Assembly (NCBI RefSeq): GCF_014844035.1
Contig: NZ_CP062159.1
Location: 4,836,001-4,900,000 of the forward strand
Length of the DNA stretch: 64,000 nucleotides
Direction: 5' to 3'
Source of the DNA: Flavobacterium sp. MDT1-60
Lineage (GTDB): Bacteria; Bacteroidota; Bacteroidia; Flavobacteriales; Flavobacteriaceae
The translations under genes and the position numbers were made by a program. The notes beneath the pieces were generated by a model that made no database searches, was not told where the DNA came from, and saw nothing but the letters and a program-made list of their open reading frames with translations. This document shows, piece after piece, positions 35,088 to 62,846 of the stretch (positions are counted from its first letter, which is position 1; each line of letters opens with the position of its first letter).

Positions 35088-37319
35088 CTATTGCTTAATA
35101 AATGATTTATTTACAATAGTGTTTCCGGTTTGAATGCGTAATAGATAAACTCCTTTAATCAAATGGCTGCAATTGAACGGAATTTCAATTCTGCCAACTT
35201 CATAGATCTGATTCGTGATAACATTTAACTTACGTCCATTCATATCAAATAATGAAATGGTAACCTTTTGCTGCTCAGTTTGCAGAAAAGTTATATTGAT
35301 GTTTGCCGATGTTGGATTAGGGTAAATACTCAAATCCTCTTCTGAATCAGGAATTGCCTTATTGGCGGCAAGCGCACTTACTGTACATGTTGGTGTTGTA
35401 CTAAAAGCCATTTGTGCGGCTGTAAAATTTGTAAATGCTGGATTTATATCGATATTAGACGTATCACTAGCTCCTTTACCATCGCAATCTGCTCTGCCGT
35501 TTCTCCAGTAAGGAAATTGCAAATAAACACCCGGCGTAGCGCAACTGCCAATTTCTGCATCGCCGCCCACTACAACTGAGCTGCCGAAATTTCCGGCAAA
35601 CAGCATGGCATTTCCTTTAATATTAGCTGTATTTGAAACTGAGCCTCCTTCCATCCAGGCATTACCTTCAACAATGGCACTATTGGATAAAGTTGCATTA
35701 TAAACGCATGCATTTCCTCTTACAATTGCATTACCATTTATAGTTCCTCCATCTACCATTGCATATTCATCTATACGGGCGTTTCCTGAAATAGTACCGG
35801 CTCTGACAACTGCATAAGGTCCAACATAAACTGTTGATGCAACAGTCGCATTATTAGATACCCATCCTCCTCCGTTAGTATGTAAATGTCCATTTGTTTT
35901 AAGAAAACTTCTAAAACTAGCTGCCGGCTGATATCCTTCCGGAGTGGCATTTGCAATTTTTAGTTCATAAGGATATCTTCTTTGCTTAGGGTAACCCACA
36001 TCCATATTGTAATTAACATGAACTTTCGGTGCTGAGAAAACTACCAGAAAAATATTTGCTTCTGTAGCTGTATTAAGAGTAAAAGAAGCCTCACCATCAG
36101 TTTTATACATTGGACTGTAACGAGATATTGTACCATCTGTTTTTGTGGTAACAAAACCATATCTCCAGCCTGCCTGAGTTGGATTAACTTCTGTATGTCC
36201 TTTGAACTTAATTGTAACTTTCTTTTGAGTTCCCGCACATGTTGGGTATAGTGGAATTACATTCATTCCGTAATCCTGCGGAGCCCAGTCATTATTGGTA
36301 TAATATTGATCTGTTGTACCTGTAACTTTAGTTAACAGTGTGTATTGCCTGCTGGTATAACGCGGCATATTGGTCTTTATGCTATTGTAAACGCTTCTGA
36401 TTGTCTTTCCAAAATTACTGGTCGTATTTATTTGGGAATTCCATTGAATAGGATAGTCGAATGCAGGCTGTCTTTGTGCATAACCCCAAAGATAATCATC
36501 AAGTTGATCCTGTGTAAAGCCTTTTAGTCTCTTAATTGTTTCAAGGGGATGTTCTTCATTGATAGATTCTGCCCACATACGTCTTGTAAAATCAAAACCC
36601 TCTTTTTCCTGAACATAATACATTAAATGAAAATTCGTGTAGTGATGTCGATTAGAGGACCACATAAAATGTTTGGTCTGTATCCACCTGGTTAAAGTAC
36701 CATCAATCTCTGACCATTGAGAATACGCCTGAGCCCGCATAAAATTAGCATGGCCTTCAAAAAACGGACCCGCCCAATCATAGCCGGAGAATGCAGTTCC
36801 GTTGCCTGGATTTTCCTGAATATGCATCATCATCTGCAGCGTGTGTGCAAACTCATGCGATAATGCCCCTCCGTCTCTGGTGGCTTCAGGATGTACAAAC
36901 ATAGCACCAATGGTATTACTAAATGAACTAGCCTGTGCAAAAGCCTCTAACCGTGGATCTGTAGAATTCCAGGTGTTCATCATCATAATAATGATTTTGT
37001 ACTTGCCGAAATTTGTTGTTGGAGCATTATTAATAAAATGCAAATCGGTTATATACCGCTTAAAGCTGGTTTCAAGGGTATCTGCAACCGATTTTGGTGT
37101 AAACCTTAATGCGGCATCAGAATAAACAGCCGGATTTGTACCTACTTTATCACCCCAATAGAGTACAAAGTTCGTAGACTCATACTTTCTGGAGCTGGAT
37201 ACTTTATTATAAAACTCATTATTGGGATCACTCCATTCTGTGGGAGTAAAAAGTGTTTTCTGGGCAATTGCAAAATGACTGGCCAGAAATACGACAACTA
37301 GTAGTAAAAGTTTTTTCAT
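35088..37319 (-). CDS. T9SS-secreted zincin metalloprotease-like protein with beta-helix
   Basis: 743 residues from ATG 37319, giving the leader MKKLLLLVVVFLASHFAIAQ. A frame from 37352 only adds non-signal residues. The N-terminal half resembles the DUF6055 family and carries HEFAH (HExxH) in GGALSHEFAHTLQMM plus FFEGHANFM, where Glu could be the third zinc ligand of a gluzincin. About residues 480-600 hold hexapeptide-like repeats (NARIDEYAMVDGGTINGNAI, NAWMEGGSVSNTANIKGNAM), which suggest a left-handed beta-helix. The C-terminus (about 665-743) is a type A T9SS sorting domain (IYPNPTSANINI, GVYLLRIQTG). So it is an exported, surface-attached or released protease-like enzyme. It may attack the peptide of a glycoprotein, in line with its neighbours. 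Confidence 0.82.
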   Translation of the reverse strand: MKKLLLLVVVFLASHFAIAQKTLFTPTEWSDPNNEFYNKVSSSRKYESTNFVLYWGDKVGTNPAVYSDAALRFTPKSVADTLETSFKRYITDLHFINNAPTTNFGKYKIIIMMMNTWNSTDPRLEAFAQASSFSNTIGAMFVHPEATRDGGALSHEFAHTLQMMMHIQENPGNGTAFSGYDWAGPFFEGHANFMRAQAYSQWSEIDGTLTRWIQTKHFMWSSNRHHYTNFHLMYYVQEKEGFDFTRRMWAESINEEHPLETIKRLKGFTQDQLDDYLWGYAQRQPAFDYPIQWNSQINTTSNFGKTIRSVYNSIKTNMPRYTSRQYTLLTKVTGTTDQYYTNNDWAPQDYGMNVIPLYPTCAGTQKKVTIKFKGHTEVNPTQAGWRYGFVTTKTDGTISRYSPMYKTDGEASFTLNTATEANIFLVVFSAPKVHVNYNMDVGYPKQRRYPYELKIANATPEGYQPAASFRSFLKTNGHLHTNGGGWVSNNATVASTVYVGPYAVVRAGTISGNARIDEYAMVDGGTINGNAIVRGNACVYNATLSNSAIVEGNAWMEGGSVSNTANIKGNAMLFAGNFGSSVVVGGDAEIGSCATPGVYLQFPYWRNGRADCDGKGASDTSNIDINPAFTNFTAAQMAFSTTPTCTVSALAANKAIPDSEEDLSIYPNPTSANINITFLQTEQQKVTISLFDMNGRKLNVITNQIYEVGRIEIPFNCSHLIKGVYLLRIQTGNTIVNKSFIKQ

Positions 37320-37506
37320 AGTAATATTAATTAATAGGTTAAGTAATAGCATTATTTTGTAAATATAATTCTGAAATTATAGTCTTTATAAGACAATATT
37401 ACCTTCAATTAATACTATTTTACCTATTTATTAAATATATGAATCTGTTACACAAATAGTTACAAACCAAAATTTTTTAAACTGCGAATTTTTATACTTT
37501 GCTCCG

Positions 37507-39716
37507 TTACTTTTTTAGTTCTGCATCTATGATCTCTAAGACAATACTGCTTTCCTGTTTGGAAGAAGAAACTTTTAATCCAATTTTCATTAGATAATCA
37601 CCTGAAAAGACACTACCTGATTCTTCAAAAGTATTTCTGCTTTCGGGCATTATATTAATTTCTTTTACTTTATACTTTTTTGAAGGGTCAAGCCCTTCCA
37701 GTCGCACCAGACTGTAATTAGGATCCGTCAGCGGATGCAGGGTATATGAAAAAACTACCGATTGTGTTTTATCCTTATTTACATACATTAATACAGCTCT
37801 GGTATCTGCATAAGGCGAGATTAATCGGTACAAATCTCCTTGCCAAATTACCGGACTTAATCGTTTGTAATTAGCAACAGCGTCCTGGCAAAATTTTAAT
37901 TCGTTTGGCTTTAATCCTCCAACGTTAATATCAAAACCTAATTTTCCCATCATAGCAACATCGGTTTTAAATTTAATGGTTTGATTTCCCATGGAGGTCA
38001 CGTGGTTACAAGTAGCCAGCGAAGGATAAAAATTAGAATATCCCCATTGAATAAACACACGGTCAAAAGGATCTGTATTGTCGCTGGCCCAAAACTCAGT
38101 AAAATAATTCAGTAATCCATAATCAACCCTGCCGCCGCCACCTGCACAAAGCATCATGGGAAGGTTGGGATATTTGGATTTTATTTTGTCTAAAACCTTA
38201 TACAAACCCTTTGTATATTCAATAAATAAATGGGATTGCTGATTTTTTAAATACGTCGAATAGGCACTGGTCATCATTCGGTTGCAGTCCCATTTAAAAA
38301 AGGCCACACCAGACTGGGTCTGCATAATATCATCTACCACTTTAAATACAAAATCCTGAACTTTTGGGTTGCATAAATCTAAAACCAATTGGGTGCGATA
38401 AATGCTCTTTTCACGATTAGGCAAACTTAGAACCCAATCCGGATGTTTTTCATATAGCTCGCTTTTTTCATTGACCATTTCCGGTTCAATCCAAATACCA
38501 AATTTCACATTGGTTTCTATGGCTTTTTCCATCAGATAACCAATTCCGTCAGGCAACTTTGTTTTTGTGGCCTGCCAGTCACCCAATCCTGATACGGAAC
38601 CGCTTCTTGGATATTTATTTCCAAACCAGCCATCGTCAAGCAAAAACATATCAACTCCCAGTGTTTTGGCATCTTCAAACATCTTGGTCAATTTAACCTG
38701 ATCAAAATCAAAAAATGTAGTCTCCCAATTATTTAATAAAGTTAAACGTGGTTTTTCACCATCTTTAAGTCCGTATTTTCTTGCCCAGGCATGTAAATTT
38801 CTGCTGGCCTGCCCTTTTCCGTGATTCGAAAATGTATAAATAAATGGAGGTGTTTTGAATATTTTTCCGGGTTCTAAATTGTATTCTGATGCAAACTCAT
38901 TGATTCCTGAAATAATTCTTAGTTCGTTATTATTGTCTATTTCAAATGTGTATTTAAAATTTCCTGACCAGGCAATTGAACCTGCAATGACTTCGCCTGT
39001 ATTTTCTCCCGATTTTGAATTTAAAGAAAGAAAAAACTCGGCGATGCAAACATGTTGGTTCGAACTCCTAATTTTGAGTCAATGATTTTACTTCCTCTTG
39101 TTAGCTGGCTTTCTTCCATTCTCATTTCTTCGACAACATCGCTGTAAAATTGTGTAAGCCAATATGTATCAGCATCCAGATGTAAAGCCGATGAGGCATA
39201 GTTATAAAGTGTTATCGCTTTTTTTTCCTGATGTTCTATTTCTGTCCAGGACTCAATAACATCTTCTTTATAAAATATTTTATAATGAAGATTGACAAAA
39301 ACGGGATATTGGGGGTCTTTTAATTTGATAATGATTTCTGTAGCGTTAGCATCTGTTTTTTGAGAAGTATGACTTTGATATTCTAATTCTAATGAAGGAT
39401 TTCCGTCGTTATGCGTTACCCTGATAGCGGGTTCAAATAAATTATCTGTACCAAAAGTGGGATAAGCTGCATGACGCAAATCAATTAGAGGATTTCCATC
39501 ATTTACCACAAACTTCTTTGTATTTTCTTTCGAAATCAATTCATATTCTAAACTGTTATTCAACTTGGTTCCAAAGTATGTTTGATACAATTTTTTATTT
39601 TTCCCTACTTTCAAAACCAAAGCCGAACTTTCAGTTTCAACAGTAATCATAACACTTTCCTGTGCCTGAACAGAGCAATAAACAATTGTGAGGAATAACA
39701 GTAAGAATCGCTTCAT
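37507..39716 (-). pseudogene. GH36 alpha-galactosidase split by a frameshift
   Basis: Two frames make one enzyme. The N-terminal part (39716-39021, signal peptide ending CSVQAQ) is the beta-supersandwich domain and stops after SPSFFFL. The C-terminal part runs on to 37507 and has the catalytic barrel: MFLLDDGWFGNKYPR, nucleophile Asp in FFKWDCNR and acid/base Asp in FWASDNTDPFDR. One more T in the run at 39031-39036 gives an open 736-residue protein, normal for GH36. As written, the signal peptide and the catalytic residues are on different chains. Alpha-galactosidase activity would suit Ser-linked alpha-Gal of extensins as well as galactosides generally. It sits 21 bp downstream of the M24 peptidase. 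Confidence 0.85.
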
Positions 39717-39737: not shown

Positions 39738-40949
39738 TTAATATCCAAATGGGTTATCAACACTTTGCATAGGTGTAGTGAACCATTTTGCTCCTTCTTC
39801 AGTCATATAAAAATGATCTTCATGTCTGATTCCAAATTTTCCGGGAATACAAATCATAGGTTCGTTACTTACTACCACGCCTTCGGACAGTTTTATTTCG
39901 CTTCCGCGGACTAAATACGGATATTCATGAATATCAAGTCCGGTTCCGTGTCCTACTCTGTGGGGTAATCCGGGTAAATCATAATCCGGGCTTAATCCGG
40001 CTTCAGCCAATGTTTTTCGGGCTGCATCATCTACTGATCCGCATGAAGAACCAATTTTTGCAGCCTCAAAAGCAGCACGTTGTACCTCTTTTTCTAAATT
40101 CCAAATCGTTTTATATTCCTCCGAAGCAGTTCCATAAACATACGATCTTGTAATATCCGAAAGATACCCTTGCAACCTGCAGCCTGTATCAATAATAACG
40201 GCTTCATTTTCTTTTAAGGGTTGAGGAATCGAAACACCATGAGGATATTGTGTATCATCTGCAAACAGAACAATACAGAAATAAGAACCAGAAGGTATTC
40301 CTGCTTTTATATGCGCTTTGTTTATAAAATCTGTCACTTCGCTAACTGTAATCCCGGGTCTTAGTATCCTGGCAGCAGCTCTTTGAACTTCCATCGTGAT
40401 ATCTTTTGCTTTTTGAATAATGGCAATTTCATTTTTTGATTTTTGCATTCGGCAGGCTGAAGTAATATTTTGCGCTGTTATAAAATCATAGCTATTATTT
40501 GCCTTTGCAATTCCATCAACTAAGAAATAAGGAGAAGACTCATCAATGGCTATTGATCCACTGCTATTTTTTTTATCTTTCAGTAACTTTCCAAATAAAA
40601 CATAGGGAGATTCGTGTTCTTCCCAGCAATTAATAGTCGATTCTACCTGCATGTATTTTTTAAATGTACCTTCTTCAAATTTTGGTACTATATATTCTAA
40701 AGAACCGTCTTCAAAAAGTATTGCACCTACCATTCTTTCAGAAGCATTCCAAAGTGTTCCTGTAAAATAATACAGGTTTGTTCCGGCGTTAAGATATATC
40801 GCTTTAACAGAAAACTTCTTCATCAATTGTGCTGCCTTTTGTATACGTTCCAAGTATTCCGTTAGCAGAATAGGTTGTACATCCAGAGTTCTGTTTTCTA
40901 TTTTTTCTAATTCAATTACTGCAGTAGAACCGCCAATACCAATTGTCAT
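39738..40949 (-). CDS. M24 family Xaa-Pro peptidase
   Basis: 403 residues, no signal peptide, so cytoplasmic. Creatinase N-like domain (about 25-155) and a pita-bread catalytic domain (about 165-390). The five metal ligands can be assigned: Asp in VIIDTGCRL, Asp in YLSDITRS, His in HRVGHGTGLDIHE, Glu in VVSNEPMI and Glu in GIRHEDHF. Such enzymes (aminopeptidase P, prolidase) cut bonds to proline or hydroxyproline. Next to glycosidases this is unusual for an ordinary PUL, and it fits degradation of Pro/Hyp-rich peptides taken up by the cell. Flanked by 21-bp and 44-bp gaps, so probably in one operon with GH36 and GH43. Confidence 0.92.
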   Translation of the reverse strand: MTIGIGGSTAVIELEKIENRTLDVQPILLTEYLERIQKAAQLMKKFSVKAIYLNAGTNLYYFTGTLWNASERMVGAILFEDGSLEYIVPKFEEGTFKKYMQVESTINCWEEHESPYVLFGKLLKDKKNSSGSIAIDESSPYFLVDGIAKANNSYDFITAQNITSACRMQKSKNEIAIIQKAKDITMEVQRAAARILRPGITVSEVTDFINKAHIKAGIPSGSYFCIVLFADDTQYPHGVSIPQPLKENEAVIIDTGCRLQGYLSDITRSYVYGTASEEYKTIWNLEKEVQRAAFEAAKIGSSCGSVDDAARKTLAEAGLSPDYDLPGLPHRVGHGTGLDIHEYPYLVRGSEIKLSEGVVVSNEPMICIPGKFGIRHEDHFYMTEEGAKWFTTPMQSVDNPFGY

Positions 40950-40993: not shown

Positions 40994-43138
40994 TTATTCT
41001 ATTTTAGGTTTTGTCTGTTTCATCAGTTGAAGTAAGTCTTTCTGATTCAAAGCATAATCATACAAGCGTAATGAGGCAATAAAACCAGAGAAATTTTCAC
41101 CAATATCTGATCCTCCAATTATAATTTTGGCTTTATCAATTGCCGAAGATAATAGCATGTTCTGCGAATTATCTAAAATACCATCTACATACACCTTCTC
41201 AACAACTCCATCAAAAGTTAAAACAATATAATGCCATTTATTCGCTTCGGGTATTTTATTAAACTTCATATCAAAATGACCGTCTAAATGTACTCCTGCA
41301 CCATAATTACCACTATTGTAAGCCAAAGCATTGTATGAATTGGCTAAACTAAACGCAGTTCTGTCACACCATGAAGCCAGAATTTCCCCTTCTTTTTCAA
41401 TTTCAGGATTTTTAACCCAGGTGGCTACTGTATAAGAGCCATTCCAGGCCAAGGATTTTGGCACTGTTTTATCCAAAGTAAAAGCGCCATTTTTGAAATT
41501 GAAGGCTTTGATCCCTTCAGAATTTTCTAAAGAGATATCGCCGCTTCTTGTAAAAATTCCACCAATAGAACCTTTATTAGAAATGGTGTTTAGATCTGAA
41601 TTGTTAGCCATTTTACTTGCGTCTAAATCAACTAAAAGTTTCTTCGTACTTTTTACTGCAGGAGCTATATTGGATGCTTTATTTTGTACTGGTAATGGAA
41701 TTTCAAATAAGGAACTATATACTTTGATGTTCCAGACTGCAGGATAAAGTCCTGTTTTTTCGGTCGCTAAAACGGTTAGTTTTATATATCGTGCCGTCAC
41801 ATCGTTATCATCAATCATTGGACTTCCCGCTGTACGATTTTTAGATTTATCAGCATACTGCTGCCATTTAGTTCCGTTCAAAGAATACTCCAATTTATAT
41901 TGGTAATAATAACTGGCAAATTCAAATTGGGTCATTACCCTTTTTATCTTTTTTTCTGAACCCAAATCGACAATTAAGTATTGAGGAGTTGTATTATCAG
42001 CTGCTTTCCACATTGTGGCATTATTATCATCAGTAGCATAAGAAGGTTTATATTCATAATCGTACTGAGTAGATTTTAAATGATAAAAAGAAGAAGCAGT
42101 AGTTTTTGTTCCAAAAGCAATATCCTGAGGAACTTCAGACTTTACCAAATCATATATTCCTTTATTTGAAGGTACAACCGTTTTAATTGTCGAATCGTTT
42201 TGAAAAATCATTTTATCGATACAAACCTGTCTGGCTAGCCCGCCTCTGGTCATAGGATAATCGTGTTTGTGATATACAATATAGTAATCATCTTTTTCCT
42301 GTAAGATAGAATGATGCCCGGGACCATGCACCGTTTTATCTTCATTGGTACTCAAAATCGGATTATTTTTTCCTGGCGTAAAAGGCCCGTAAGGCGAATC
42401 GGAATAAGAGTAACGGACATTGTAGGTTTCATCATGACAAGAAGCTCCGGAGTACATCAGGATGTATTTAGAACCTTTCTTCATCATATAAGCAGCTTCA
42501 AAAGGTGCCGGAGTTTGTGCTAGCGGTATATTGGCTGAATGAATCATATCACTCATTGTTTTTTTATTCAATTCTCCCACGGCATATCCTCCATTGTAAT
42601 GCACCCAGGTTCCCCAATAGCCATAAATTTTACCATCGGCATCTTTAAAAAACTGTGCGTCCAAAGATGGAAAACCTTCTCTGGGATATCCGTTTGAAAT
42701 TACCGGAACATCCTGATCGCTTAATTTTTTCCAGGGACCAACAGGCGAATCGGAAACATAACCATAAATATTACAGCCTATTTCACAGTTTCCAAAATAC
42801 AAATAATACTTACCATCATCTCCCTGAACAATATCAGGAGCCCAAAAATTAGTTATGGATTTGGCCGAAAACGACGGGATTTCCATAATATAATTGTACC
42901 AATTTTTAAAGTCTTTGCTATACCAGACTGTCGGTGCTCCAGATGCCAGCATTTCGTTATCAGTAGTAGCGTAGATGTAATAAGTATCTCCAAACTTTTT
43001 AATAGTGGGGTCAGCAAACCAGCCAGGTAAAACAGGATTTCCTGCACCGGGAGAATTTACATCAACATCCTTTTGAGCAAAAATGGTTCCTGTAAAAACA
43101 AGTATGATAAGACTGTATAATAGTTTCTTTTTCAGCAT
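40994..43138 (-). CDS. GH43 arabinofuranosidase-like enzyme with F5/8 and LamG modules
   Basis: 714 residues from ATG 43138, leader MLKKKLLYSLIILVFTGTIFAQ. A longer frame from 43195 overlaps the GH42 end and is not used. The GH43 propeller at about 20-320 has Asp in GWFADPTI (base), Asp in FPSLDAQFF (pKa modulator) and Glu in PFEAAYMM (acid). An F5/8 type C discoidin-like domain (about 330-475; DNTTPQYLIVDLGS) and a LamG/concanavalin domain (about 530-700; WHYIVLTFDGVVEKVYVDG) follow, both likely glycan-binding. GH43 covers alpha-L-arabinofuranosidase, beta-xylosidase and exo-galactanase, and the neighbours favour arabinose removal. The subfamily was not determined. Confidence 0.9.
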   Translation of the reverse strand: MLKKKLLYSLIILVFTGTIFAQKDVDVNSPGAGNPVLPGWFADPTIKKFGDTYYIYATTDNEMLASGAPTVWYSKDFKNWYNYIMEIPSFSAKSITNFWAPDIVQGDDGKYYLYFGNCEIGCNIYGYVSDSPVGPWKKLSDQDVPVISNGYPREGFPSLDAQFFKDADGKIYGYWGTWVHYNGGYAVGELNKKTMSDMIHSANIPLAQTPAPFEAAYMMKKGSKYILMYSGASCHDETYNVRYSYSDSPYGPFTPGKNNPILSTNEDKTVHGPGHHSILQEKDDYYIVYHKHDYPMTRGGLARQVCIDKMIFQNDSTIKTVVPSNKGIYDLVKSEVPQDIAFGTKTTASSFYHLKSTQYDYEYKPSYATDDNNATMWKAADNTTPQYLIVDLGSEKKIKRVMTQFEFASYYYQYKLEYSLNGTKWQQYADKSKNRTAGSPMIDDNDVTARYIKLTVLATEKTGLYPAVWNIKVYSSLFEIPLPVQNKASNIAPAVKSTKKLLVDLDASKMANNSDLNTISNKGSIGGIFTRSGDISLENSEGIKAFNFKNGAFTLDKTVPKSLAWNGSYTVATWVKNPEIEKEGEILASWCDRTAFSLANSYNALAYNSGNYGAGVHLDGHFDMKFNKIPEANKWHYIVLTFDGVVEKVYVDGILDNSQNMLLSSAIDKAKIIIGGSDIGENFSGFIASLRLYDYALNQKDLLQLMKQTKPKIE

Positions 43139-43172
43139 TGCAATTGTAATTAACTTGAATAGCTTATTTCTA

Positions 43173-45276
43173 TTAATATTTCCAAACCAGTACATCAGCA
43201 GTTTTTATTGCTGTAGTTCCAATAATAATTTTAGCACTTTTTGGTAAATTGACATTGTAGATTTTATCTGAATAATTGACTGCGATACCAAATCCATCGC
43301 GATACTCTACCATAATTCCTTCAGGATAATTTTCTATAGGCGTATTTTGTTTTTGGTATAATTTTCTTAATACTTGTTTTTCAAGTTCGCCATTTTTGGA
43401 ATCTACGCCAATGTAGGTAACTGTTCCTTTACCTAAATTACGTGAAATAATAGCGGGAGTTCCTGAATAAAAATCGCCGTCATAAGTTCCCCAAATTTCT
43501 GTCTCTTTATTTGGCTTTAATAAATCTCCCCAACTTGTCCAGCCAAATTCCCGATTATCAAATTTTATTATACCCGGAGACTGTGGCATTAACAAATCAT
43601 ATGATTCTATTTGAGAACCTATTAAATTCCACATTGGTTCATAGAATTTTGCTTCCCAAAGATGGCCTTTACGATTTTGAATTCCGGATCGACAGCTCAT
43701 GATTAAATTTCCTCCGTTTTTAGCATACAAAGTCAGTTTATCAATCATATTTTGATCAATCATTTGATAAGCAGGCACTATCAAAAAAGGGTAATTTGAG
43801 AAATTTGTTGTATCCCGAACAAAATCAACTGGCGCACCCATCGATTTTGTTGCTTTATAATATTTTAAAAAATGTCCTATGGTATTCCACTCTTTTGTTT
43901 GCTTGTTTAACTCAATGCCCATCACATTATCCGCATTGAATAAAATTCCGGTTTTACGTTTTAAATAGTAATCGGGTAATACTGCTTTGGCATCATACTT
44001 TTTTCTTAATGTATCAATTTCTTTTATAAACTGACTGAATTCTATACCTCCAACAGTTGGTGTAACGCCATCTGTACCGACAATACCATAATGAAATTGC
44101 TCATAACCATACAAAGGAGCCCGAAAACGATATGTACATGCAAATTTACTGCCTCCTGCAAAAACATGCCACAGCCACATACGGATACTTCCCGGTAATG
44201 GCTGCGGATTGATACTTCCCCAGTTTACTTGTCCCGGCTGCAGTTCCATACAACCATACATTCCTTTTAAAGGTCGAAAAAAAATCATTAGACATTCCGA
44301 TACTGGTATAGTCTCCTAAGCGATATCCTTTCGGACCAATTCCAGGACTTCCTCCGTAAACTAAATACCGTGTATAACAGTCAAAATCCAATTCCTTGCT
44401 CATTCCAACAAAGCTTTCATCATAATTGGATCTGTAATTAGAAGTAATCCATTGGTCTCTGGTTATGTATTTGCGTATGGTAAGCGCCTGACTATCCAGA
44501 AATGTTGCCGTTTCCTGATCTGCAAATCGATAATGATCTAATTGGGAGTGTAAATTCATTCCCCATTCCTTGTGCAGCGGAATATTAATCTGGTCAAAAT
44601 TGCTGTAAATTCCACTCCAGAAATTGTTTCCCCAGGCTTCATTTAAAGCATCAATAGTTACATATTTTTCTTTTAACCAATTGCGATAGCGTTGCAGTGC
44701 ATCTGGTCCATAATCCAGAAAACGCGAAGGCTCATTATCTACCTGCCAACCAATAATATTTTTATTGTTGCCATATCTTTTCGCCAATTGTTCAATCATT
44801 TTTAAAGAATAGGCGCGATAATAATTACTTGAAAATGACGCATGTTGTCTTGAACCGTGATCTGTTTTAGTGCCGTCTTCATAAGTAGCCAATATATCCG
44901 GATGCTGGCGAACCAGCCAAACTGGAGGAGTAGCCGTTGAGGTACACATGACAATTTTTAAATTATATTTTGCAGCAATACCAACAGCTTTGTCCAGCCA
45001 TTTAAAATCATAAACACCTTCTTGTGGTTCTAATTGTGCCCATGCAAATTCGCCAAAATGGGTAAACTCGAAACCCATTTCAGCAATTTTTTTCAAATCA
45101 CGATCCCACTGACTCTGGTCCCAATGTTCAGGGTAATAATATACTCCTACTGTTGTCAGGTCTTTTTTTGGAAAGTATTTGTCAAAATTTTGAGCACTGG
45201 AATTTAAACTGGTAAGTATTCCAAATAAAATAAATATTATTTTATAGAAAAGGTGTTTTTTTGATTTTTGCTTCAT
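43173..45276 (-). pseudogene. GH42 beta-galactosidase split by a frameshift
   Basis: The upstream frame (45276-44146) has a signal peptide (ending LNSSAQ) and the GH42 barrel start: VGVYYYPEHWDQSQW, FTHFGEFAWA and acid/base Glu182 in GWQVDNEPSR. The downstream frame (from about 44288 to 43173) carries the nucleophile Glu in GCMELQPGQVNWG and the trimerisation and C-terminal domains. The two overlap around a run of eight A (plus strand) at 44277-44284. Removing one base joins MSNDFF to RPLKGMYG and gives 700 residues, a normal GH42 length. As written, the two catalytic Glu lie on separate polypeptides, so neither piece can work alone. Substrate would be beta-galactosides such as galactan side chains. 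It follows the DUF5695-like gene by 7 bp. Confidence 0.87.
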
Positions 45277-55225: not shown

Positions 55226-55420
55226 AATTTAAATAGTAATAAAAATATATAATATTGATTGACATCTATGGGTTAATATTAACAGATAGTAATATTATAT
55301 TATCCATTGAAAATGAAATGTTAGGGAAATCAGTTATTAAATACTAATTACGGGTTGAAATCAAGTTTTTCTTAGCAGCATAAAAATAAGAAAAAGTAAA
55401 TTTTAAATATTCTTTCGATA

Positions 55421-55471: not shown

Positions 55472-56887
55472 TTAATTTGAAGTTTTTTCTTTAATTAAAT
55501 AATAAATCGGAATACCCATCAGCATAATTAAAACGCCCCAGCCACAGGTTGAAAATTTTGTGAACAATAAAGAAACACAAACAGCCGAGGCAATAACAAT
55601 ATACAATAAGGGTAAAAATGGATATCCGATTGCTTTGTACGGGCGAACTGCATCTGGCATTTTTTTACGAAGACGCATAATCCCGTAAATAGTCAGAATG
55701 TAGAAAATCAGGACAATGATAATTACAAAGTCTAATAAATCTCCGTATTTACCTGTAAGACATAATACTGAAGCCCAAATACATTGTGCCCACAGTGCCC
55801 AGGCAGGAACACTTGCGTGGTTTAGCAGCGCTGCTTTTTTAAAGAACAAACCGTCATTTGCCATGGTATAATAGACTCTGGCCCCAGCCATAATTAATCC
55901 GTTATTACAGGCAAAGGTCGATATCATAATCATAAGGGCAATAATAAGCGTTCCAATATCTCCAAAAATATAATCTGAAGCGACCACTGCTACCCTATCA
56001 GATTTTGCTGTTGCAATTTCGCTAAGCGGAATAACAGCTACATACATTAAATTGGTTAATACATAAATAATGGTTACAATTAAAGTTCCGAGAAACATGC
56101 TTAAACCCACATTTCTTTTTGGATTCTTAATTTCTCCTGCAATAAAAGTTACACCAGTCCAGGAATCACTTGAAAACAAGGTCCCAACCATGGCAGCAGA
56201 TATTCCGGAAATTAATGCTGTAGTATTAATTGACATCCACGAACCTGTTTCTGTGTTAAAAGAATGTGGCGTCCAGGCATCTGTCCAGTTGGCATTCCAA
56301 ATAGAAGCTTTAGCAGCCAAGGTAAATCCGAAAATGATTAGTCCTGAAATAGATACTATTTTTATAATGGTTAAAATGGTTTGCAAAATTTTACTGTTTT
56401 TTACTCCTCGCGTGTTTAAATAGGTCAGAAAAATAATGGTCACAATAGAAACAATCTGTGCTACATTGAGTTTAAAACTGCCTATTTCATATAAAACATT
56501 TTCATCACTAACAGCCGGAATCAAATAAGCTGCAAATTTTGAAAATGCCACTCCCACTGCCGCAATGGTTCCGGTTTGAATGACGGCAAAAAAGCTCCAG
56601 CCATACAAAAAGGCAATTAATTTATTGTAGGCTTCTTTTAAGTAAACATATTGTCCGCCTGCATTGGGAAACATGGCACTTAATTCTCCGTAACTTACTG
56701 CGGCAATCATCGTAATAATTCCTGAAATGAGCCATATTAAAATGAGCCATCCGGTCGAACCTACTTGTCTGGCAATATCGGCACTTACAATAAATATTCC
56801 GGATCCAATCATGGAACCTACAACAAGCATGGTTCCGTCGAGAAGCCCTAATTCTTTTTTAAATTCTTCGTGGTTTTGGTCTTTCAT
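55472..56887 (-). CDS. APC superfamily amino acid permease
   Basis: 471 residues, about 12 membrane segments, no cleaved signal. The N-terminal signature GTMLVVGSMIGSGIFIVSADIA is the amino acid binding loop of the APC family, and FSSDSWTGVTFIAGEIKNPKRN is the conserved loop after helix 6. It imports an amino acid at the inner membrane. The position after the hydroxyproline genes makes hydroxyproline or proline the probable cargo, though nothing in the sequence fixes it. A terminator hairpin at 56998-57039 separates it from the upstream gene, so it may have its own promoter. Confidence 0.92.
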   Translation of the reverse strand: MKDQNHEEFKKELGLLDGTMLVVGSMIGSGIFIVSADIARQVGSTGWLILIWLISGIITMIAAVSYGELSAMFPNAGGQYVYLKEAYNKLIAFLYGWSFFAVIQTGTIAAVGVAFSKFAAYLIPAVSDENVLYEIGSFKLNVAQIVSIVTIIFLTYLNTRGVKNSKILQTILTIIKIVSISGLIIFGFTLAAKASIWNANWTDAWTPHSFNTETGSWMSINTTALISGISAAMVGTLFSSDSWTGVTFIAGEIKNPKRNVGLSMFLGTLIVTIIYVLTNLMYVAVIPLSEIATAKSDRVAVVASDYIFGDIGTLIIALMIMISTFACNNGLIMAGARVYYTMANDGLFFKKAALLNHASVPAWALWAQCIWASVLCLTGKYGDLLDFVIIIVLIFYILTIYGIMRLRKKMPDAVRPYKAIGYPFLPLLYIVIASAVCVSLLFTKFSTCGWGVLIMLMGIPIYYLIKEKTSN

Positions 56888-56997: not shown

Positions 56998-57039
56998 AAA
57001 AAAAATCAGCTTCATTTAAAAAAATGAAACTGATTTTTT
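56998..57039 (-). terminator. hairpin at the stop of the D-hydroxyproline dehydrogenase gene
   Basis: AAAAATCAGCTTCATTT (57001-57017) pairs, with one mismatch, with AAATGAAACTGATTTTT (57022-57038), and A/T tracts lie on both sides. On the minus strand it follows directly on the last codon, so it ends the hydroxyproline operon before the permease gene. Confidence 0.7.
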
Positions 57040-58273
57040 ATAGTTGAAACATTTGCATGTCTACAGAAGTAGTTTTTCCGGAAATAATCTCTGTTACAAT
57101 TTTTCCTGTTGCAGGTGCCAGGCTTAAGCCCATCATGGCATGCCCTGTAACCAAAGTTAGATTTTTAAGTTTTTTATCTCGGGCAATTATTGGCATTCCG
57201 GAAGGTGTACAAGGTCTGAATCCGAACCATGTATCTTCTTCTTTTGGCATTTCAATTTTTAAGTCCGGATAAAAATCATTGATGGAATTTACAATTCCCT
57301 GCAATCTGTTCTGATTGATTTTGGTGTCATCGGTGTGTGTTATTTCCATTGTTCCTCCAAAACGAATATCGCTATTCATAGGCGTAACCGCGACTTTTCC
57401 TTCACACAAAATACTTGGAATTGAAGGTTTGTGGTTTTGATCTTTTAACGTAAAGCTGTAGCCTTTCCCGGGTAATATTGATATATTGACATTCAATTTT
57501 TTAGCGATGTGCGGGCTCCATGATCCTGTTGCCAAAACAACCTCATCTGTTGCAAAACTGCCTTTATCTGTTATGATTTCAGCAACGGTATTATTCTTTA
57601 AAACAAAATCACTTACGGTTGTCAAAGGATGAATTTGTACTTTTAAGTGATTTAATTGTTCTTTTAAAAACTGCATGAATTTTTGAGGATAAACATGCGC
57701 ATCGCTTTTATAATGTACACCGCCAATGACGTTTGTAGCCGTTCCTGTTTCTAATTTTGAGACCTCATCTTTTGACAGGAAATCAACTTCTAAGCCTAAT
57801 TCTTCTGCCAATTTTCCTTCGTGATGAATTTCTTCGGCGGTTTTATCCGTTTTATACAGCATTAAAAGTCCTTTTTCTTCATAAAAAAAAGAGTTGTTCT
57901 GCCTTGCAAAATCCTGATAAAGTTCTTTACTCAAAAGTGATAAATCACAGAGAGCCGGCATTGCTTTTTCGACATGTTTTAAATTGGCATGTTTATAGAA
58001 CTGCAATCCCCATTTTATTAAATCCATGCTTAATCTTGGTTTCACATAAAACGGACTCTGGCTGTCAAACATCCATTTTATTCCCTGTGCAATCATACCG
58101 GGCTGTGCCAGGGGAATTATATGCGAAGGAACAATCATTCCCGCATTTCCGTAAGAACAGCCGTCATTCATATCTGATTTATCAAAAACAACTACTTCAA
58201 AACCTTCTTTGGCTAAATAATAAGCTGAACACAAACCTATTATCCCTCCCCCAATTATACTGACTTTTTTCAT
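57038..58273 (-). CDS. FAD-dependent D-amino acid dehydrogenase, probable cis-4-hydroxy-D-proline dehydrogenase
   Basis: 411 residues from ATG 58273, which puts the Rossmann motif IIGGGIIGLCSAYYLAKEG at the start; a frame from 58291 adds six residues. DAO/DadA-family flavoprotein with VVVFDKSD (ADP ribose contact) and a C-terminal GHAMMGLSLAPATGKIVTE closing the FAD site. In the operon it is placed to oxidise cis-4-hydroxy-D-proline to delta1-pyrroline-4-hydroxy-2-carboxylate. Generic D-amino acid dehydrogenation would be the reading without context. It lies 72 bp downstream of the epimerase. A terminator overlaps its end. Confidence 0.88.
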   Translation of the reverse strand: MKKVSIIGGGIIGLCSAYYLAKEGFEVVVFDKSDMNDGCSYGNAGMIVPSHIIPLAQPGMIAQGIKWMFDSQSPFYVKPRLSMDLIKWGLQFYKHANLKHVEKAMPALCDLSLLSKELYQDFARQNNSFFYEEKGLLMLYKTDKTAEEIHHEGKLAEELGLEVDFLSKDEVSKLETGTATNVIGGVHYKSDAHVYPQKFMQFLKEQLNHLKVQIHPLTTVSDFVLKNNTVAEIITDKGSFATDEVVLATGSWSPHIAKKLNVNISILPGKGYSFTLKDQNHKPSIPSILCEGKVAVTPMNSDIRFGGTMEITHTDDTKINQNRLQGIVNSINDFYPDLKIEMPKEEDTWFGFRPCTPSGMPIIARDKKLKNLTLVTGHAMMGLSLAPATGKIVTEIISGKTTSVDMQMFQL

Positions 58274-58345
58274 TAGTATTATAAATTTCAAATCATTGGC
58301 AGGAAAGTATTCTGTAAACCAATGTTTTTTTACATTATCATTTTT

Positions 58346-59356
58346 TTAAATTACCTGAAAACCAAATGCGTACGGATCATCATCTTCATCAATAATGATG
58401 TTATTATATCCGTAAACTTTTGCCCAGCCCTGAATGCTTGGTACAATGGCTTTAATATCTCCTATTGAAGTTTCTTCTTCAACCCGTCCGATAAATTTGC
58501 TTCCAATAAAACTTTCATGAATATAGTCTTCCCCTTTTTTGAGTTTCCCTTTGGCATGAAGCTGCGCTATTCTGGCTGAAGTTCCGGTTCCGCATGGCGA
58601 GCGGTCAATCGCTTTGTCACCATAGAAAACAGCATTTCTACCGGATGAAGCCGGATCAATAGGATCTCCTGTCCAGAGCATATGACTCACATCACGAATG
58701 GTGTCATTTTCAGGATGAATGAAAAGATTTGGATATTTCTCGTTAATGCGTTTTCGAACTTCCTGACTGTACTGCACAATTTTTCCGGCTGTAAAATCCT
58801 GAACGCCTGAAAAATGCTGCTGCGGATCTACAATAGCGTAATAATTTCCGCCATAAGCGACATCAAAAACAATTTCGCCTAATTCCGGACAATCAACAGT
58901 CAAACCTTCAGCTGCTAAATATGATTTTACGTTGGTCAATCGAACCCAATCCACTTTTTTTCCGGTTTGTTGGTATTCTATTTGAACCAAACCTGCCGGA
59001 GCTTCCATTTTTATCTTCCCGGGAATTTTAGGGATAACTAATCCTTCTTCAATAGCAATAGTTATAGTTCCAATTGTTCCGTGGCCGCACATAGGCAGAC
59101 AACCGGAAGTCTCTATAAATAAGATTCCGAAATCATTTTCAGGATCACTGGGCGGATACAATATACTGCCACTCATCATGTCATGACCCCGGGGTTCAAA
59201 CATAAGTCCTTTACGAATCCAGTCGAATTCTTTTAGGAAATACTGGCGTTTCTCGCTCATATTGTTTCCAATCAAATTGGGACCACCACCGGCTACAACT
59301 CTTACGGGATTTCCACAGGTATGAGCATCTACGCAAAAAAAGGTTTTTCTAGGCAT
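58346..59356 (-). CDS. 4-hydroxyproline 2-epimerase (proline racemase family)
   Basis: 336 residues, cytoplasmic. Both acid/base cysteines are present: Cys90 in LPMCGHGTIG and Cys255 in RSPCGTGTSA. Cys at both sites marks racemase/epimerase, whereas a Thr in place of one would mean 3-hydroxyproline dehydratase. It converts trans-4-hydroxy-L-proline to cis-4-hydroxy-D-proline, the first step of the pathway. It lies 3 bp from the aldehyde dehydrogenase gene. Start MPRKTFFCVDAHTCGNPVRV is typical of the family. Confidence 0.93.
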   Translation of the reverse strand: MPRKTFFCVDAHTCGNPVRVVAGGGPNLIGNNMSEKRQYFLKEFDWIRKGLMFEPRGHDMMSGSILYPPSDPENDFGILFIETSGCLPMCGHGTIGTITIAIEEGLVIPKIPGKIKMEAPAGLVQIEYQQTGKKVDWVRLTNVKSYLAAEGLTVDCPELGEIVFDVAYGGNYYAIVDPQQHFSGVQDFTAGKIVQYSQEVRKRINEKYPNLFIHPENDTIRDVSHMLWTGDPIDPASSGRNAVFYGDKAIDRSPCGTGTSARIAQLHAKGKLKKGEDYIHESFIGSKFIGRVEEETSIGDIKAIVPSIQGWAKVYGYNNIIIDEDDDPYAFGFQVI

Positions 59357-59359
59357 ATA

Positions 59360-60928
59360 TTAAATGGTGTTCTGGGTTACTATATCATTTACTATTCTAT
59401 TAATTCCTAACGGATTTTTATCCTGCAGTGCTTGTGGAAGCAACTCATCCGGCCAATCCTGAAAAGTTACCGGCCGAACCCATCTTTTGACTGCAGTTAA
59501 TCCTACTGAGGTAAATTTGCTGTCTGAACTTGCGGGAAAAGGTCCACCGTGTGTCATTGCCGAACAAACCTCTACACCGGTAGGAACATTATTAAAAATT
59601 AAGCGTCCGACTTTATTTTTAAGATTTTCAATTACTTCTTTGAAATCTTCATATTCTTTTAGATCAGCATTTAAAATGGTTCCGGTCAATTGTCCTTCTA
59701 AATCCAAAATAATTTCATTGAGCTGCTGAATATCATCACATTTAACGACAACAGAAAAAGGGCCGAAAACCTCCTGATGAAACGTTCTGTTTTTTAAGAA
59801 AGTATCGCCATCGACCGTAATTACATTTTGCAATGCATAATTTGGTTTTACTTCTCTGTTTAAAGTTGTTTGCTGTGTATATCCTTCCTGTCCAAGCACT
59901 TCTGATTTCAGGGTTTCATATTGCTTTTTGATATTAGGATTCAGCATGCAAGTTGGTTCTAATTTATCAATCTCTAAAGCTAAAATAGTAATAAAATAAT
60001 CCAGTTCGTTGCTTTTTATTCCTAAAATAAGACCGGGATTTGTGCAAAACTGACCCGTTCCTGCCACAATCGATCCGGCATAATTTTTAGCCCATTTTTC
60101 AACATCTGTTTTCAAAGCAGAGGGTAAAACAATCACCGGATTAATACTTCCCATCTCGGCGTAAACCGGAATTGGGATAGCTCTATTTGCTGCAGCTTTG
60201 CAAAGCGCTATGCCTCCTTTAGTACTTCCTGTAAATCCAACTGCCTTAATTGAAGGATGTTCTACTAAAGCGGTTCCCACTGCTGTACCGCTGCTGTTGA
60301 GATTGGAGAAAACACCATTTGGCATTCCTGTTCTTTTGGCTGCCTTAATAACTGCCGAAGCTACCATTTCACCTGTTCCGGCATGAAGCGGATGCGATTT
60401 CACCACCACAGGGCAGCCGGCTGCCAGTGCGCTTGCAGTATCTCCTCCAGCTGTAGAAAAGGCAAGAGGAAAATTACTGGCTCCAAAAACAACTACAGGT
60501 CCAATTGGAATCTGTAATCTTCGGATGTCTGGTTTGCCTTCTGTTTTATTAATGATTGCTTCAACCCACGAACCTTCTCTAAGCATGGTTGCAAATGCTC
60601 TTAACTGCCCGGTTGTTCTTGCGCGTTCTCCATTTGCTCTTCCTTCCGGAAGGCCTGATTCCTTAATGTAGCTTACTAATAAATCTTCGCCAAGTGCTTC
60701 AATTTCTTCTGCTATCGCTTCCAGAAAATTAGCTTTTTTTACGTCTTCAATTGTTCCGTATGTTTTAAAAGCTTCTTCGGCTAAAAGTACGGCCTGAGAA
60801 ATTTCATCTTCGGTAGCTTCATAAAAAACTGTTTCATTTTCAGAATTTTGTTCTGGGTTTATGGTTTTATATGTCGTTTTACCTTTTGCGGAAAGCACGT
60901 CTCCAATATAATTTTTACCTGTCGTCAT
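59360..60928 (-). CDS. aldehyde dehydrogenase, probable 2-oxoglutarate semialdehyde dehydrogenase
   Basis: 522 residues, cytoplasmic. ALDH family with the catalytic Cys295 in GTGQFCTNPG, NAD(P) site VVFGASNFPLAFSTAGGDT and GFTGSTKGG, and Glu in YAEMGSINPV. The C-terminal THGGPFPASSD is seen in 2,5-dioxovalerate (2-oxoglutarate semialdehyde) dehydrogenases. It would carry out the last step, giving 2-oxoglutarate for the TCA cycle. Gap of 20 bp to the DapA-like gene and 3 bp to the epimerase, so one transcript. Confidence 0.92.
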   Translation of the reverse strand: MTTGKNYIGDVLSAKGKTTYKTINPEQNSENETVFYEATEDEISQAVLLAEEAFKTYGTIEDVKKANFLEAIAEEIEALGEDLLVSYIKESGLPEGRANGERARTTGQLRAFATMLREGSWVEAIINKTEGKPDIRRLQIPIGPVVVFGASNFPLAFSTAGGDTASALAAGCPVVVKSHPLHAGTGEMVASAVIKAAKRTGMPNGVFSNLNSSGTAVGTALVEHPSIKAVGFTGSTKGGIALCKAAANRAIPIPVYAEMGSINPVIVLPSALKTDVEKWAKNYAGSIVAGTGQFCTNPGLILGIKSNELDYFITILALEIDKLEPTCMLNPNIKKQYETLKSEVLGQEGYTQQTTLNREVKPNYALQNVITVDGDTFLKNRTFHQEVFGPFSVVVKCDDIQQLNEIILDLEGQLTGTILNADLKEYEDFKEVIENLKNKVGRLIFNNVPTGVEVCSAMTHGGPFPASSDSKFTSVGLTAVKRWVRPVTFQDWPDELLPQALQDKNPLGINRIVNDIVTQNTI

Positions 60929-60948: not shown

Positions 60949-61863
60949 TTAAATATTTTTATACGCTGGCAAAACCGGTCTGTTTTTCATTGCTGAATCA
61001 ATGATGGTCAAAACACGTTCTCTTTCAGCTCCCTGCAAAGGCAATCTTGGTGCTCTTACATTTTCTGTTCCAAGTCCTGTTGCTACTTCGGCTAGTTTGA
61101 TATTTTGCACCAATTGCGGAGAAATATCCAATTCTAATAATGGCATGAACCATCTGTAGATAGCTAGTGCTTCAGCAACTTTGCCAGCTTTTACCAATTT
61201 ATAAATTGCAACCGTTTCAGCAGGATAGGCCACTACCAAACCGGCAACCCAGCCATCGGCTCCAGCCACTAAACTTTCAAGTGCTAAAGTATCAACACCA
61301 CAAAGTACTTTTAATCGGTCTCCAAAACGGTTTCTGATTCTCGTTACGTTACTGATGTCTCTTGTCGACTCTTTAACTGCCTGAATATTTTCCAGTTTTA
61401 AAAGTTCTTCGAACATGTCAAGTGTTACCTCAATTTTATAATCTACAGGATTGTTGTAAATCATAATAGGCAATGAAGTACTTTTTGCAATTTCTTTGAA
61501 ATAGACCACTGTTTCATAATCTGTTGCTTTGTATCGCATTGGCGGCAAAAGCATAAGACCATTTACGCCTAATTCTTCAGCGCGTTTTGCCAAAGTTATC
61601 GCTTCGCTTGTGGTTTGTTCTGCAATATTTACGATAACGGGAATTTTCCCTTCCACTATTCGTAAAGTGTTATTTATTAAAACCTCTTTTTCTTCTTTGG
61701 TTAATGTACTGGCTTCACCAAGAGTTCCCCCCAGTATGATTCCATTAACTCCAGCATCAATTTGTGCTTTAATATTTTTTTCGAACATTACAAGGTCCAA
61801 TTGACCTTCTGCTGTAAACTTTGTCGTTACAGCCGGCATTACGCCATCCCAATTTATTTTCAT
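60949..61863 (-). CDS. DapA-family deaminase, probable delta1-pyrroline-4-hydroxy-2-carboxylate deaminase
   Basis: 304 residues from ATG 61863 (MKINWDGVMPAV); a frame from 61881 adds six residues. DHDPS/N-acetylneuraminate lyase barrel with GGTLGEASTL, Tyr in PIMIYNNPV and Schiff-base Lys164 in QAVKESTRD. The setting beside epimerase, dehydrogenase and ALDH makes it the deaminase that yields 2-oxoglutarate semialdehyde and ammonia, and not lysine biosynthetic DapA. It is the first gene of the operon, divergent from an AraC regulator. Confidence 0.9.
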   Translation of the reverse strand: MKINWDGVMPAVTTKFTAEGQLDLVMFEKNIKAQIDAGVNGIILGGTLGEASTLTKEEKEVLINNTLRIVEGKIPVIVNIAEQTTSEAITLAKRAEELGVNGLMLLPPMRYKATDYETVVYFKEIAKSTSLPIMIYNNPVDYKIEVTLDMFEELLKLENIQAVKESTRDISNVTRIRNRFGDRLKVLCGVDTLALESLVAGADGWVAGLVVAYPAETVAIYKLVKAGKVAEALAIYRWFMPLLELDISPQLVQNIKLAEVATGLGTENVRAPRLPLQGAERERVLTIIDSAMKNRPVLPAYKNI

Positions 61864-62000
61864 ATTCTCAATTTTTATCAAAAATAAAGCTTAAACAAAA
61901 GAGCTCCTGTGTCATTATTAGCCTTTATCAATACTATATTACCATATCTGTTGTATAATCTGTTTTTTTTGATAATATTTACATATCTAAAAACATTAAG
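61864..62000. promoter_or_regulatory. divergent promoter region, hydroxyproline operon and AraC gene
   Basis: 137 bp of A/T-rich sequence shared by the two divergent genes. TTATCAA (near 61925) and TTGATAA (near 61969) are inverted about 40 bp apart and could be regulator sites. No clear consensus promoter can be named. Confidence 0.4.
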
Positions 62001-62846
62001 TTGAAAATTCTACCTTTTAAAATACCTAAAACCGAGAGAGAAGCCCTTATTTATCAGGAAGATATTGAACGTGTTTTCTATGATCAGCTGCATCAGCATG
62101 AAGAAATTCAGATTAGCTATATTGCAAAAGGTTCAGGAACTTTAATTGTTGGAGATTCGATAAACGATTATAAGGAAGAAGATATTTTGGTAATTGGTGA
62201 GAATATCCCTCATGTTTTTAGAAGTAATACTGAGGCCAGTCCCGAATCTGTGATGCTGACTTTATTTTTTACCAAAACCTCCTTTGGAAAAGATTTTTTC
62301 AGTCTTAATGATATGAGCAGTCTCGAAGATTTTTTTAAGGAATCTGAATATGGTATGAAAATACTATCGAACCAAAAGAAAATAATTCATCATTTTACCA
62401 AGCTAAGAAAACAGAATAAAATACAGCGTATTGCTTCATTTTTAAAGATCATAAACATTATTATTACTTCAGAAAAAACACCTCTTTCCTCCTTTGTTTA
62501 CAAAAAGAAATATACCGATGATGAAGGAAGAAGAATGAGCGCCGTTTTTGAATATGCAATCGAATATTATCATCAGAATATTACTTTGGACGAAGTGGCC
62601 GAGAAGGCCAATATGAGTAAAAATGCATTTTGCCGTTATTTTAAAAAACGCACCAATAAGACTTTTTTTCAGTTTTTGATTGAAATCAGAATTGAAAATG
62701 CCTGCAAATTACTACACCATAAAAAAGATCTCTCGATAGCCTCCATATCTGAGCTTTGCGGATTTCAGGACATTGCCAATTTCAACAGAAAGTTTAAGGA
62801 ATTAAAAGGAGTCTCTCCTTCGCATTATCGTTCCCAAATTAGTTAA
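62001..62846 (+). CDS. AraC-family regulator of the hydroxyproline operon
   Basis: 281 residues. Start is TTG at 62001, chosen because MKILPFKIPKTE is the typical N-terminus of such proteins. The cupin sensor domain (about 20-110) has HQHEEIQISYI and VIGENIPHVF. The C-terminal AraC domain (about 180-281) has VAEKANMSKNAFCRYFKK and IASISELCGFQDIANFNRKF. Divergent position relative to the DapA-like gene makes it the likely regulator, perhaps with hydroxyproline as ligand. It converges with the M61 gene, 1 bp apart once the frameshift there is corrected. Confidence 0.92.
   Translation: MKILPFKIPKTEREALIYQEDIERVFYDQLHQHEEIQISYIAKGSGTLIVGDSINDYKEEDILVIGENIPHVFRSNTEASPESVMLTLFFTKTSFGKDFFSLNDMSSLEDFFKESEYGMKILSNQKKIIHHFTKLRKQNKIQRIASFLKIINIIITSEKTPLSSFVYKKKYTDDEGRRMSAVFEYAIEYYHQNITLDEVAEKANMSKNAFCRYFKKRTNKTFFQFLIEIRIENACKLLHHKKDLSIASISELCGFQDIANFNRKFKELKGVSPSHYRSQIS

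Follow-up and report, generated by a model that had tools for sequence, protein, structure and literature searches.

In Flavobacterium sp. MDT1-60, a 64,000-bp stretch of the chromosome (G000:C1:4836001-4900000, hereafter the window; the genome is one contig of 5.56 Mb) carries a locus in which glycosidase and peptidase genes are joined to genes for the catabolism of 4-hydroxyproline (Hyp). Extensins and arabinogalactan proteins (AGPs) are Hyp-rich parts of plant and green-algal walls. The locus is likely to be a self-contained regulon for such Hyp-rich glycoproteins (HRGPs) of plants or green algae, with extensin-type glycopeptides as the foremost candidate. Its gene content, the linkage conserved in relatives and a common operator-like site are observed; from these we infer the substrate, the order of steps, the operon boundaries, the inducer and the binding of the site by an AraC-type regulator. 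A previous sequence-only reading had proposed a polysaccharide utilisation locus (PUL) coupled to Hyp catabolism. Strong support for that proposal comes from a site common to both halves, which has no other match in this genome at up to two mismatches; the linkage also recurs in relatives.

Pfam backs every gene named by that reading among the open reading frames (ORFs) of the window, and with it the placement of glycosidases, a DUF5695 protein and S9, DUF885, M24 and zincin-like proteins on one strand with a permease and Hyp genes. Fourteen minus-strand genes are separated by gaps of -23 to 246 bp. Following a divergent AraC-family gene, they encode DHDPS, aldehyde dehydrogenase, epimerase, DAO, permease, S9, GH127-type, DUF885, DUF5695, GH42, GH43, M24, GH36 and DUF6055 proteins, and a gap of 471 bp lies between DUF6055 and the next gene (ECF sigma). 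The interval of the sequence-only reading omitted an M61 peptidase (62994..63989, minus strand; Pfam M61), which runs off the window end, and the SusD and SusC genes adjoining it just beyond (L110:1540-3144 and L110:3156-6155, minus strand). This adjacent SusC/SusD pair, of the kind that marks PULs, belongs to the same regulatory unit.

The common site was read from aligned AraC-DHDPS spacers of linked genomes and from the AraC-S9, AraC-GH127, AraC-SusC and AraC-DUF6055 spacers of others. It spans 27 bp, GRTAATATAGTAT-N8-GNTAAT, and contains a pair of GnTAATA half-sites at a spacing of 21 bp. Site 1, before the Hyp operon (61917..61943), has no mismatch; site 2, before the S9-to-GH36 run of peptidase and glycosidase genes (55278..55304), and site 3, before DUF6055 (37398..37424), have one mismatch each. 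These three are on the minus strand, as is a fourth site before SusC-SusD-M61, outside the window (genome 4905231-4905257, at most two mismatches). Across the 5.56-Mb genome, a search at up to two mismatches returned four matches, all at the locus, one per transcription unit and on the operon strand; the reversed pattern gave two. The S9, DUF6055 and SusC sites of this genome played no part in reading the motif. Within the window, up to three mismatches gave three matches against 0.37 expected. The AraC-family regulator (62001..62846, plus strand; Pfam HTH_18/HTH_AraC), which is divergent from the Hyp operon, likely binds this operator. Its relatives (61-72%) adjoin Hyp operons or, in other genera, S9/GH127 genes.

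G079, G103 and G060 have sites at each of these four positions, plus others elsewhere. A wider comparison used 80 named loci, the best-scoring 80 of 494 relatives found, from 79 genomes. The site is present in 52 of the 80; of the 68 sites counted, 65 share their strand with DUF5695, and the reversed control gave none in 1.73 Mb. Outside the motif-reading set it is found in 41 of 68 named loci, some of these genomes having contributed another spacer. The site also persists where DUF5695 and the epimerase gene lie apart or on other contigs, a group of 25 genomes in which some separations may be mere contig breaks: 12 have it within 6 kb upstream of the epimerase and on its strand, where a crude estimate predicts 0.06. 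Three of the 12 (G836, G871 and G877) supplied motif-reading spacers, which leaves 9 of 22. Maribacter sp. MMG018 carries the site at both halves, 1.1 Mb apart; of the stretches examined there, the glycosidase half only has a close AraC relative. Control genomes without the epimerase family gave no match (G010) and one match (G022). No site was matched near either half in the unlinked genome G302, nor at up to two mismatches in L206, L207, L212, L213 and L238, so regulation in these five loci may differ. Judged by these matches, site-based coupling is common, not universal.

Linkage of DUF5695 with Hyp genes was followed in genus (150 genomes), family (299) and phylum (395) samples, which have a few genomes in common. 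In the genus sample, the Pro_racemase family of the epimerase is present in 23 genomes and DUF5695 in nine, all within the 23. Eight of the nine have DUF5695 and the epimerase on one strand and no more than 20 kb apart, and G074 splits the pair over two short contigs. Orthologues of the GH146-like enzyme discussed below (at least 75% over the length of the gene) occur in the same nine genomes, other matches covering only part of the protein. The family sample has DUF5695 in 16 genomes: that of the window itself, G060, 11 other full-length cases, two cut by contig ends and one decayed fragment. The 11 span 10 genera and all possess the Pro_racemase family (157 of 299 overall); six are linked (within about 16 kb, one strand), four have the genes on different contigs and one about 0.94 Mb apart. 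In the phylum sample, DUF5695 occurs in 14 genomes, ten of which have the epimerase family, eight of these linked. The sequence-only reading had named as its contrary case homologous loci in which glycosidases and Hyp genes are always apart; the three samples show otherwise.

The named loci agree with this picture. The Pro_racemase family is present in 77 of the 79 genomes behind them, and DUF5695 and the epimerase share contig and strand within 27.1 kb in 52 of the 80 loci after six false coordinate matches were removed. These 52 comprise 34 with the Hyp genes inside the locus, two established separately and 16 proven by sequence common to the locus and the epimerase stretch. The rejected six are L155 and L187, where epimerase contig and locus have no sequence in common; L198, with an epimerase contig of only 6.5 kb; L203, with an epimerase coordinate beyond the contig end; L141, a 12-kb contig showing no Hyp gene; and L152, the same contig as in G074, whose epimerase sits on another. 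Among the best 80 of 494, the closest is that of Flavobacterium sp. Root420 (DUF5695 97%). Besides this one, carriers of the locus include other isolates with plant-related names (F. soyae, F. glycines, F. panacis, F. phragmitis) as well as many further Flavobacteriia.

Gene order varies. Other genera show Hyp-(SusCD or M24)-S9-GH146-DUF885-DUF5695; in G112, G042, G102 and G049 the Hyp genes are preceded by the glycosidase module; and in Allomuricauda profundi (L160) the epimerase precedes GH146 by 41 bp. L251, from a genome sharing only the class, has Hyp-DAO-DUF885-DUF5695 and no GH127 in its 20-kb stretch. Mucilaginibacter L206 has DUF5695 beside the Hyp genes with no close GH127 there, and G445 keeps Hyp-S9-GH127-DUF885 together, with DUF5695 on another contig. 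It could be argued that the Hyp genes form an operon for Hyp peptides, such as those of collagen or gelatin, that merely neighbours a glycosidase set. Consistent with this, 14 of 22 epimerase-family neighbourhoods of the genus lack GH127 and DUF5695 in the flank examined, several of them having S9-, M24- and SusC-like genes, and DUF5695-DUF885-S9 stays together in L247, whose genome lacks the epimerase family. Such an arrangement is nevertheless improbable for the present locus, in view of a linkage that persists through several gene orders and of the same site standing before both glycosidases and Hyp operon and nowhere else in the genome.

The route from trans-4-hydroxy-L-proline comprises an epimerase, a D-Hyp oxidase, a deaminase and a semialdehyde dehydrogenase. 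The epimerase (58346..59356, minus strand; Pfam Pro_racemase family) scores 586.4 bits with NF010578 (cut-off 376) and falls under the cut-offs of the NCBIfam models for proline racemase and trans-3-Hyp dehydratase; by these scores it is a true 4-hydroxyproline epimerase, not a proline racemase or dehydratase. The remaining minus-strand genes encode a DHDPS-family protein (60949..61881; Pfam and context), probably the pyrroline-4-hydroxy-2-carboxylate deaminase; an aldehyde dehydrogenase (59360..60928; Pfam), probably the 2-oxoglutarate semialdehyde dehydrogenase; and a DAO-family flavoprotein (57038..58291; Pfam DAO), probably the cis-4-hydroxy-D-proline oxidase/dehydrogenase. An amino acid permease (55472..56887, minus strand; Pfam) follows. 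The claim that all four Hyp enzymes are present holds for the epimerase, by NCBI equivalog, and for the occurrence of the right families in one run. The other three stay below every specific equivalog cut-off: no specific model passed for the DHDPS-family protein, the best NCBIfam matches of the aldehyde dehydrogenase (2,5-dioxovalerate and ketoglutaric semialdehyde models) are far under cut-off, and the closest model of the DAO protein, D-amino acid dehydrogenase, is also below it. The steps after the epimerase are thus probable assignments from family and operon context.

Two further observations come from relatives. Ornithine cyclodeaminase/mu-crystallin-type genes lie within the locus of two of them (L119:2425-3387 and L120:16881-17840) and may possibly serve 3-hydroxyproline-derived pyrroline-2-carboxylate. 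A second, more distant Pro_racemase-family gene is present in each of G004, G006, G030, G047, G056, G057 and G109; in five of these seven genomes it shares the contig of the first, at a distance of about 36 kb or less.

Among the glycosidases, the GH127-type protein (49866..52919, minus strand; Pfam GH127-type catalytic domain, with LamG and Ig-like domains) matches the solved chains 5opj (5e-65) and 8k7y (3e-38), with 8k7x also among the best, and more weakly 4qjy, labelled GH127 (2e-11), and 3wkw (3e-6). We take 5opj and 8k7y to be GH146 enzymes, and 5opj to be BT0349. By search E-values rather than a tree, the protein is a putative beta-L-arabinofuranosidase closer to the characterised enzymes of GH146 than to those of GH127. 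Residues E725, E746, C748, C816 and C817 are invariant across 14 aligned orthologues; E746, C748, C816 and C817 correspond, by pattern and not by alignment, to E723, C725, C804 and C805 of Bll3HypBA1. Accordingly placed by its residues, the Zn site of a GH146-type enzyme (one Glu, three Cys, Cys nucleophile) is kept. The portions available of PMC10850190 give the Bll3HypBA1 residues, agree with the GH146 assignment of 5opj and 8k7y, and report that GH146 enzymes cleave Araf-beta-Hyp. They also describe BT0349 on an arabinan-derived substrate. This, the closeness of 5opj and the inclusion of arabinanases in GH43 would suit a locus for arabinan or pectin side chains that gained its Hyp genes by chance. 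A Pfam scan found no pectin lyase family among the locus ORFs, and the peptidase and Hyp genes share the site, which makes that origin highly improbable.

The GH43 protein (40994..43195, minus strand; Pfam, with F5/8C and LamG; best solved relative 5msx; subfamily not typed) is probably an alpha-L-arabinofuranosidase. GH42 (43173..45276, minus strand; Pfam on the two ORFs 44146-45276 and 43173-44288) and GH36, of the alpha-galactosidase type (37507..39716, minus strand; Pfam N- and C-parts on ORFs 39021-39716 and 37507-38691), each have one frameshift in the assembly. In 25 loci of relatives (L140-L164), GH42 is an intact single ORF (about 700 aa) in all 18 that show it, and GH36 (731-755 aa) in all 13. 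Flavobacterium sp. Root420 and CF108 are examples of close isolates whose genes are intact. Alpha-galactosidase-type genes vary by clade: GH36 in the window, GH97 in some relatives (three Pfam-scanned) and a GH27-type gene in L211. The GH97 protein of G112, the only one compared, matches retaining alpha-galactosidases best (3e-155; the top alpha-glucosidase reaches 9e-58). This recurrence of the activity type in different families fits the Ser-alpha-Gal of extensin, which carries Ser-Gal and Hyp-Ara (PMC5371791, available text).

Galactanases and galactosidases for type II arabinogalactan usually belong to GH16, GH30 and GH35. If AGPs were the target, the enzymes would trim type II arabinogalactan, leaving the Hyp-rich backbone to the peptidases and the Hyp operon. 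A Pfam scan of the locus ORFs gave no match to GH16, GH30, GH35 or GH88/GH105, and the main text of a Maribacter arabinogalactan proteome paper, in the part available, lacks GH127, GH146 and proline (PMC11036162). An AGP target therefore appears rather unlikely, and an extensin-type substrate is favoured. The sequence-only reading had called the locus a candidate complete one, and "complete" is too strong: GH36 and GH42 are frameshifted in this assembly, GH16, GH30 and GH35 are missing from the locus, and SusC/SusD lie beyond the interval given. The beta-L-arabinobiosidase family GH121 was not found in the locus, to which the search was confined, its ORFs falling to other Pfam families.

Four peptidase-like proteins accompany M61, all on the minus strand. 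The S9 protein (52976..55225; Pfam), with bacterial dipeptidyl peptidases of the DPP IV type as its best solved relatives, has a signal-like N-terminus by eye. DUF885 (48058..49749; Pfam) is peptidase-like, and the M24 protein (39738..40949; Pfam, PepQ model below cut-off) is of the Xaa-Pro dipeptidase type with no obvious signal peptide by eye. DUF6055 (35088..37352; Pfam DUF6055 and Por_Secre_tail) ends in a type IX secretion sorting tail. An HEFAH motif, seen by eye, agrees with its designation as a zincin in the sequence-only reading; no peptidase was matched when solved structures were searched. Protein locations were judged from N-termini read by eye and from the Por tail.

In the extensin-type regulon favoured here, the secreted zincin-like DUF6055 protein would cut the glycoprotein outside the cell, and SusC/SusD would carry glycopeptides into the periplasm. 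There, GH43 may take off alpha-arabinose caps, the GH146-like enzyme may trim beta-L-arabinofuranose down to Hyp, GH36 and GH42 may remove alpha-galactose from Ser and beta-galactose, respectively, and DUF5695 may act on a glycan near the peptide. The bared peptide would be cut in the envelope by S9, DUF885 and M61. Small peptides and amino acids would pass to the cytosol, where M24 would split Xaa-Hyp/Pro and the four-enzyme operon would convert 4-hydroxyproline to 2-oxoglutarate. A single AraC-type regulator is predicted to read the operator, a copy of which precedes each of the four transcription units. Import, deglycosylation, proteolysis and Hyp catabolism should thus be induced jointly; the inducer is probably Hyp or a pathway intermediate.

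Several observations weigh against this interpretation. Within the genus, 14 of the 23 genomes with the epimerase family lack DUF5695, which implies Hyp use independent of the glycosidases. Conversely, a Pro_racemase-family gene is absent from 4 of the 14 DUF5695-bearing genomes of the phylum sample and from 2 of the 79 named genomes. The best 80 loci are biased to resemble the window, and related genomes are non-independent. The site is missing from 13 of the 25 separated Hyp genes, and whole-genome counts in relatives are noisy: the pattern and its reversed form gave 105 and 35 matches in 22 genomes (6 and 7 in G103) and 94 and 31 in 25 genomes, so that the position of the site, not its count, is the evidence there. 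In G103, a paralogous AraC-DHDPS cluster carries an additional perfect site. The GH36 and GH42 frameshifts may be assembly errors or else strain-specific losses. Finally, GH27 also includes a beta-L-arabinopyranosidase, according to a partly available source, and the GH27 point is therefore weak.

The G103 cluster just mentioned (L239, G103:C1:3668001-3688000) consists of AraC (56%), DHDPS (72%), M24 and S9 genes apart from the main locus and is a possible paralogous branch of the regulon.

DUF5695 (45284..47974, minus strand; Pfam 1318.8 bits) is a candidate carbohydrate-active enzyme (CAZyme) whose gene frequently neighbours those for Hyp. Residues E641, W644, D645, Q649, E650, E651, H708 and H709 are invariant in it. 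The candidates scored include at least 3,859 relatives, and in the open-licence literature, in the parts available, one paper was found to name DUF5695, a paper on fungal regulators. Its profile gave no sequence match to solved chains at E up to 1. Its modelled fold is nearest to 5no8, the polysaccharide lyase BACCELL_00875, presumably PL27, from which it differs by an identity of 15% over the alignment as well as by the missing sequence-level match. Homology to GH127 was considered and dropped, since a profile comparison showed none. GH121 was not among the best fold matches listed for the model, which does not exclude it. Nor can DUF5695 be regarded as the partner that accompanies the Hyp genes most constantly, since it was the basis on which the named loci were picked, and in G445 it lies on another contig. 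In L247, DUF5695, DUF885 and S9 stand in a row without any Pro_racemase-family gene in the genome, and this trio may predate the Hyp link. A broader reading, which we hold as tentative and as falling somewhat short of an even chance, is that a Hyp-responsive AraC regulon across Bacteroidota treats the glycoprotein as one nutrient, sugar and backbone, and that DUF5695, a core member, would found a new CAZyme family of lyase-like fold, acting next to Hyp and freeing the backbone for proteolysis.

Other genes surround the locus. Right behind DUF6055, the window contains a second, site-free transporter system of ECF sigma, FecR, STN-type SusC and SusD (28008-34616). It was considered as the transporter of the locus and rejected: it has no site at up to three mismatches and has its own regulators, and the other SusC/SusD pair bears the site. 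After this set follow a GDPD/alkaline phosphatase protein, GH3 and a hybrid two-component regulator (18394-27566). A third PUL (3611-17896) consists of SusC/SusD, an SGBP-B-like protein, GH10, a Reg_prop/HTH regulator without kinase domains, and GH31. Just past the SusC/SusD pair of the locus lie genes resembling, by eye, parts of a type II secretion system or type IV pilus (ATPase, inner-membrane protein, secretin; L110:12295-19923).

In the open-licence literature, as represented by titles and abstract beginnings of part of the matches, no Bacteroidota locus was found that combines glycosidases for HRGPs with the catabolism of Hyp. The bacterial systems found there stop at sugars as far as the sources show; the regulon would join deglycosylation, proteolysis and Hyp catabolism. 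If correct, this would account for the recovery of backbone carbon and nitrogen, provide a genomic marker for HRGP use and give DUF5695 a testable role. For the Latescibacteria (WS3), an in-silico proposal from single-cell genomes includes GH127 and other enzymes for algal HRGP degradation (PMC4454575); the accessible part is a genome inventory that describes no locus, regulator or coupling to Hyp catabolism.

The Hyp-arabinoside enzymes of Bifidobacterium longum and Xanthomonas euvesicatoria are HypAA (GH43), HypBA2 (GH121) and HypBA1 (GH127 or GH146), according to the available portions of PMC6085000, PMC7263609 and PMC10850190. The likeness of the Flavobacterium locus to that system lies in its GH43 and GH146-type enzymes for beta-L-arabinosides on the Hyp of extensin-like proteins. 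The described system provides sugar release, plus sugar import in B. longum, in the parts of these sources available, whereas the Flavobacterium locus has no recognised GH121 and places SusC/SusD, peptidases, an alpha-galactosidase, DUF5695 and Hyp catabolism under one site. Like known trans-4-hydroxy-L-proline operons, it has the four enzyme families in one run, with an epimerase that passes its equivalog, but the site upstream is common to the glycoprotein-degrading set. With Bacteroidota PULs it shares the grouping of SusC/SusD, several CAZymes and a regulator. Beyond them, it adds secreted and periplasmic peptidase-like genes and the catabolism of a backbone amino acid, and some genomes keep the site at both halves even though these are unlinked. 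What is new is a PUL-like system extended to the protein backbone.

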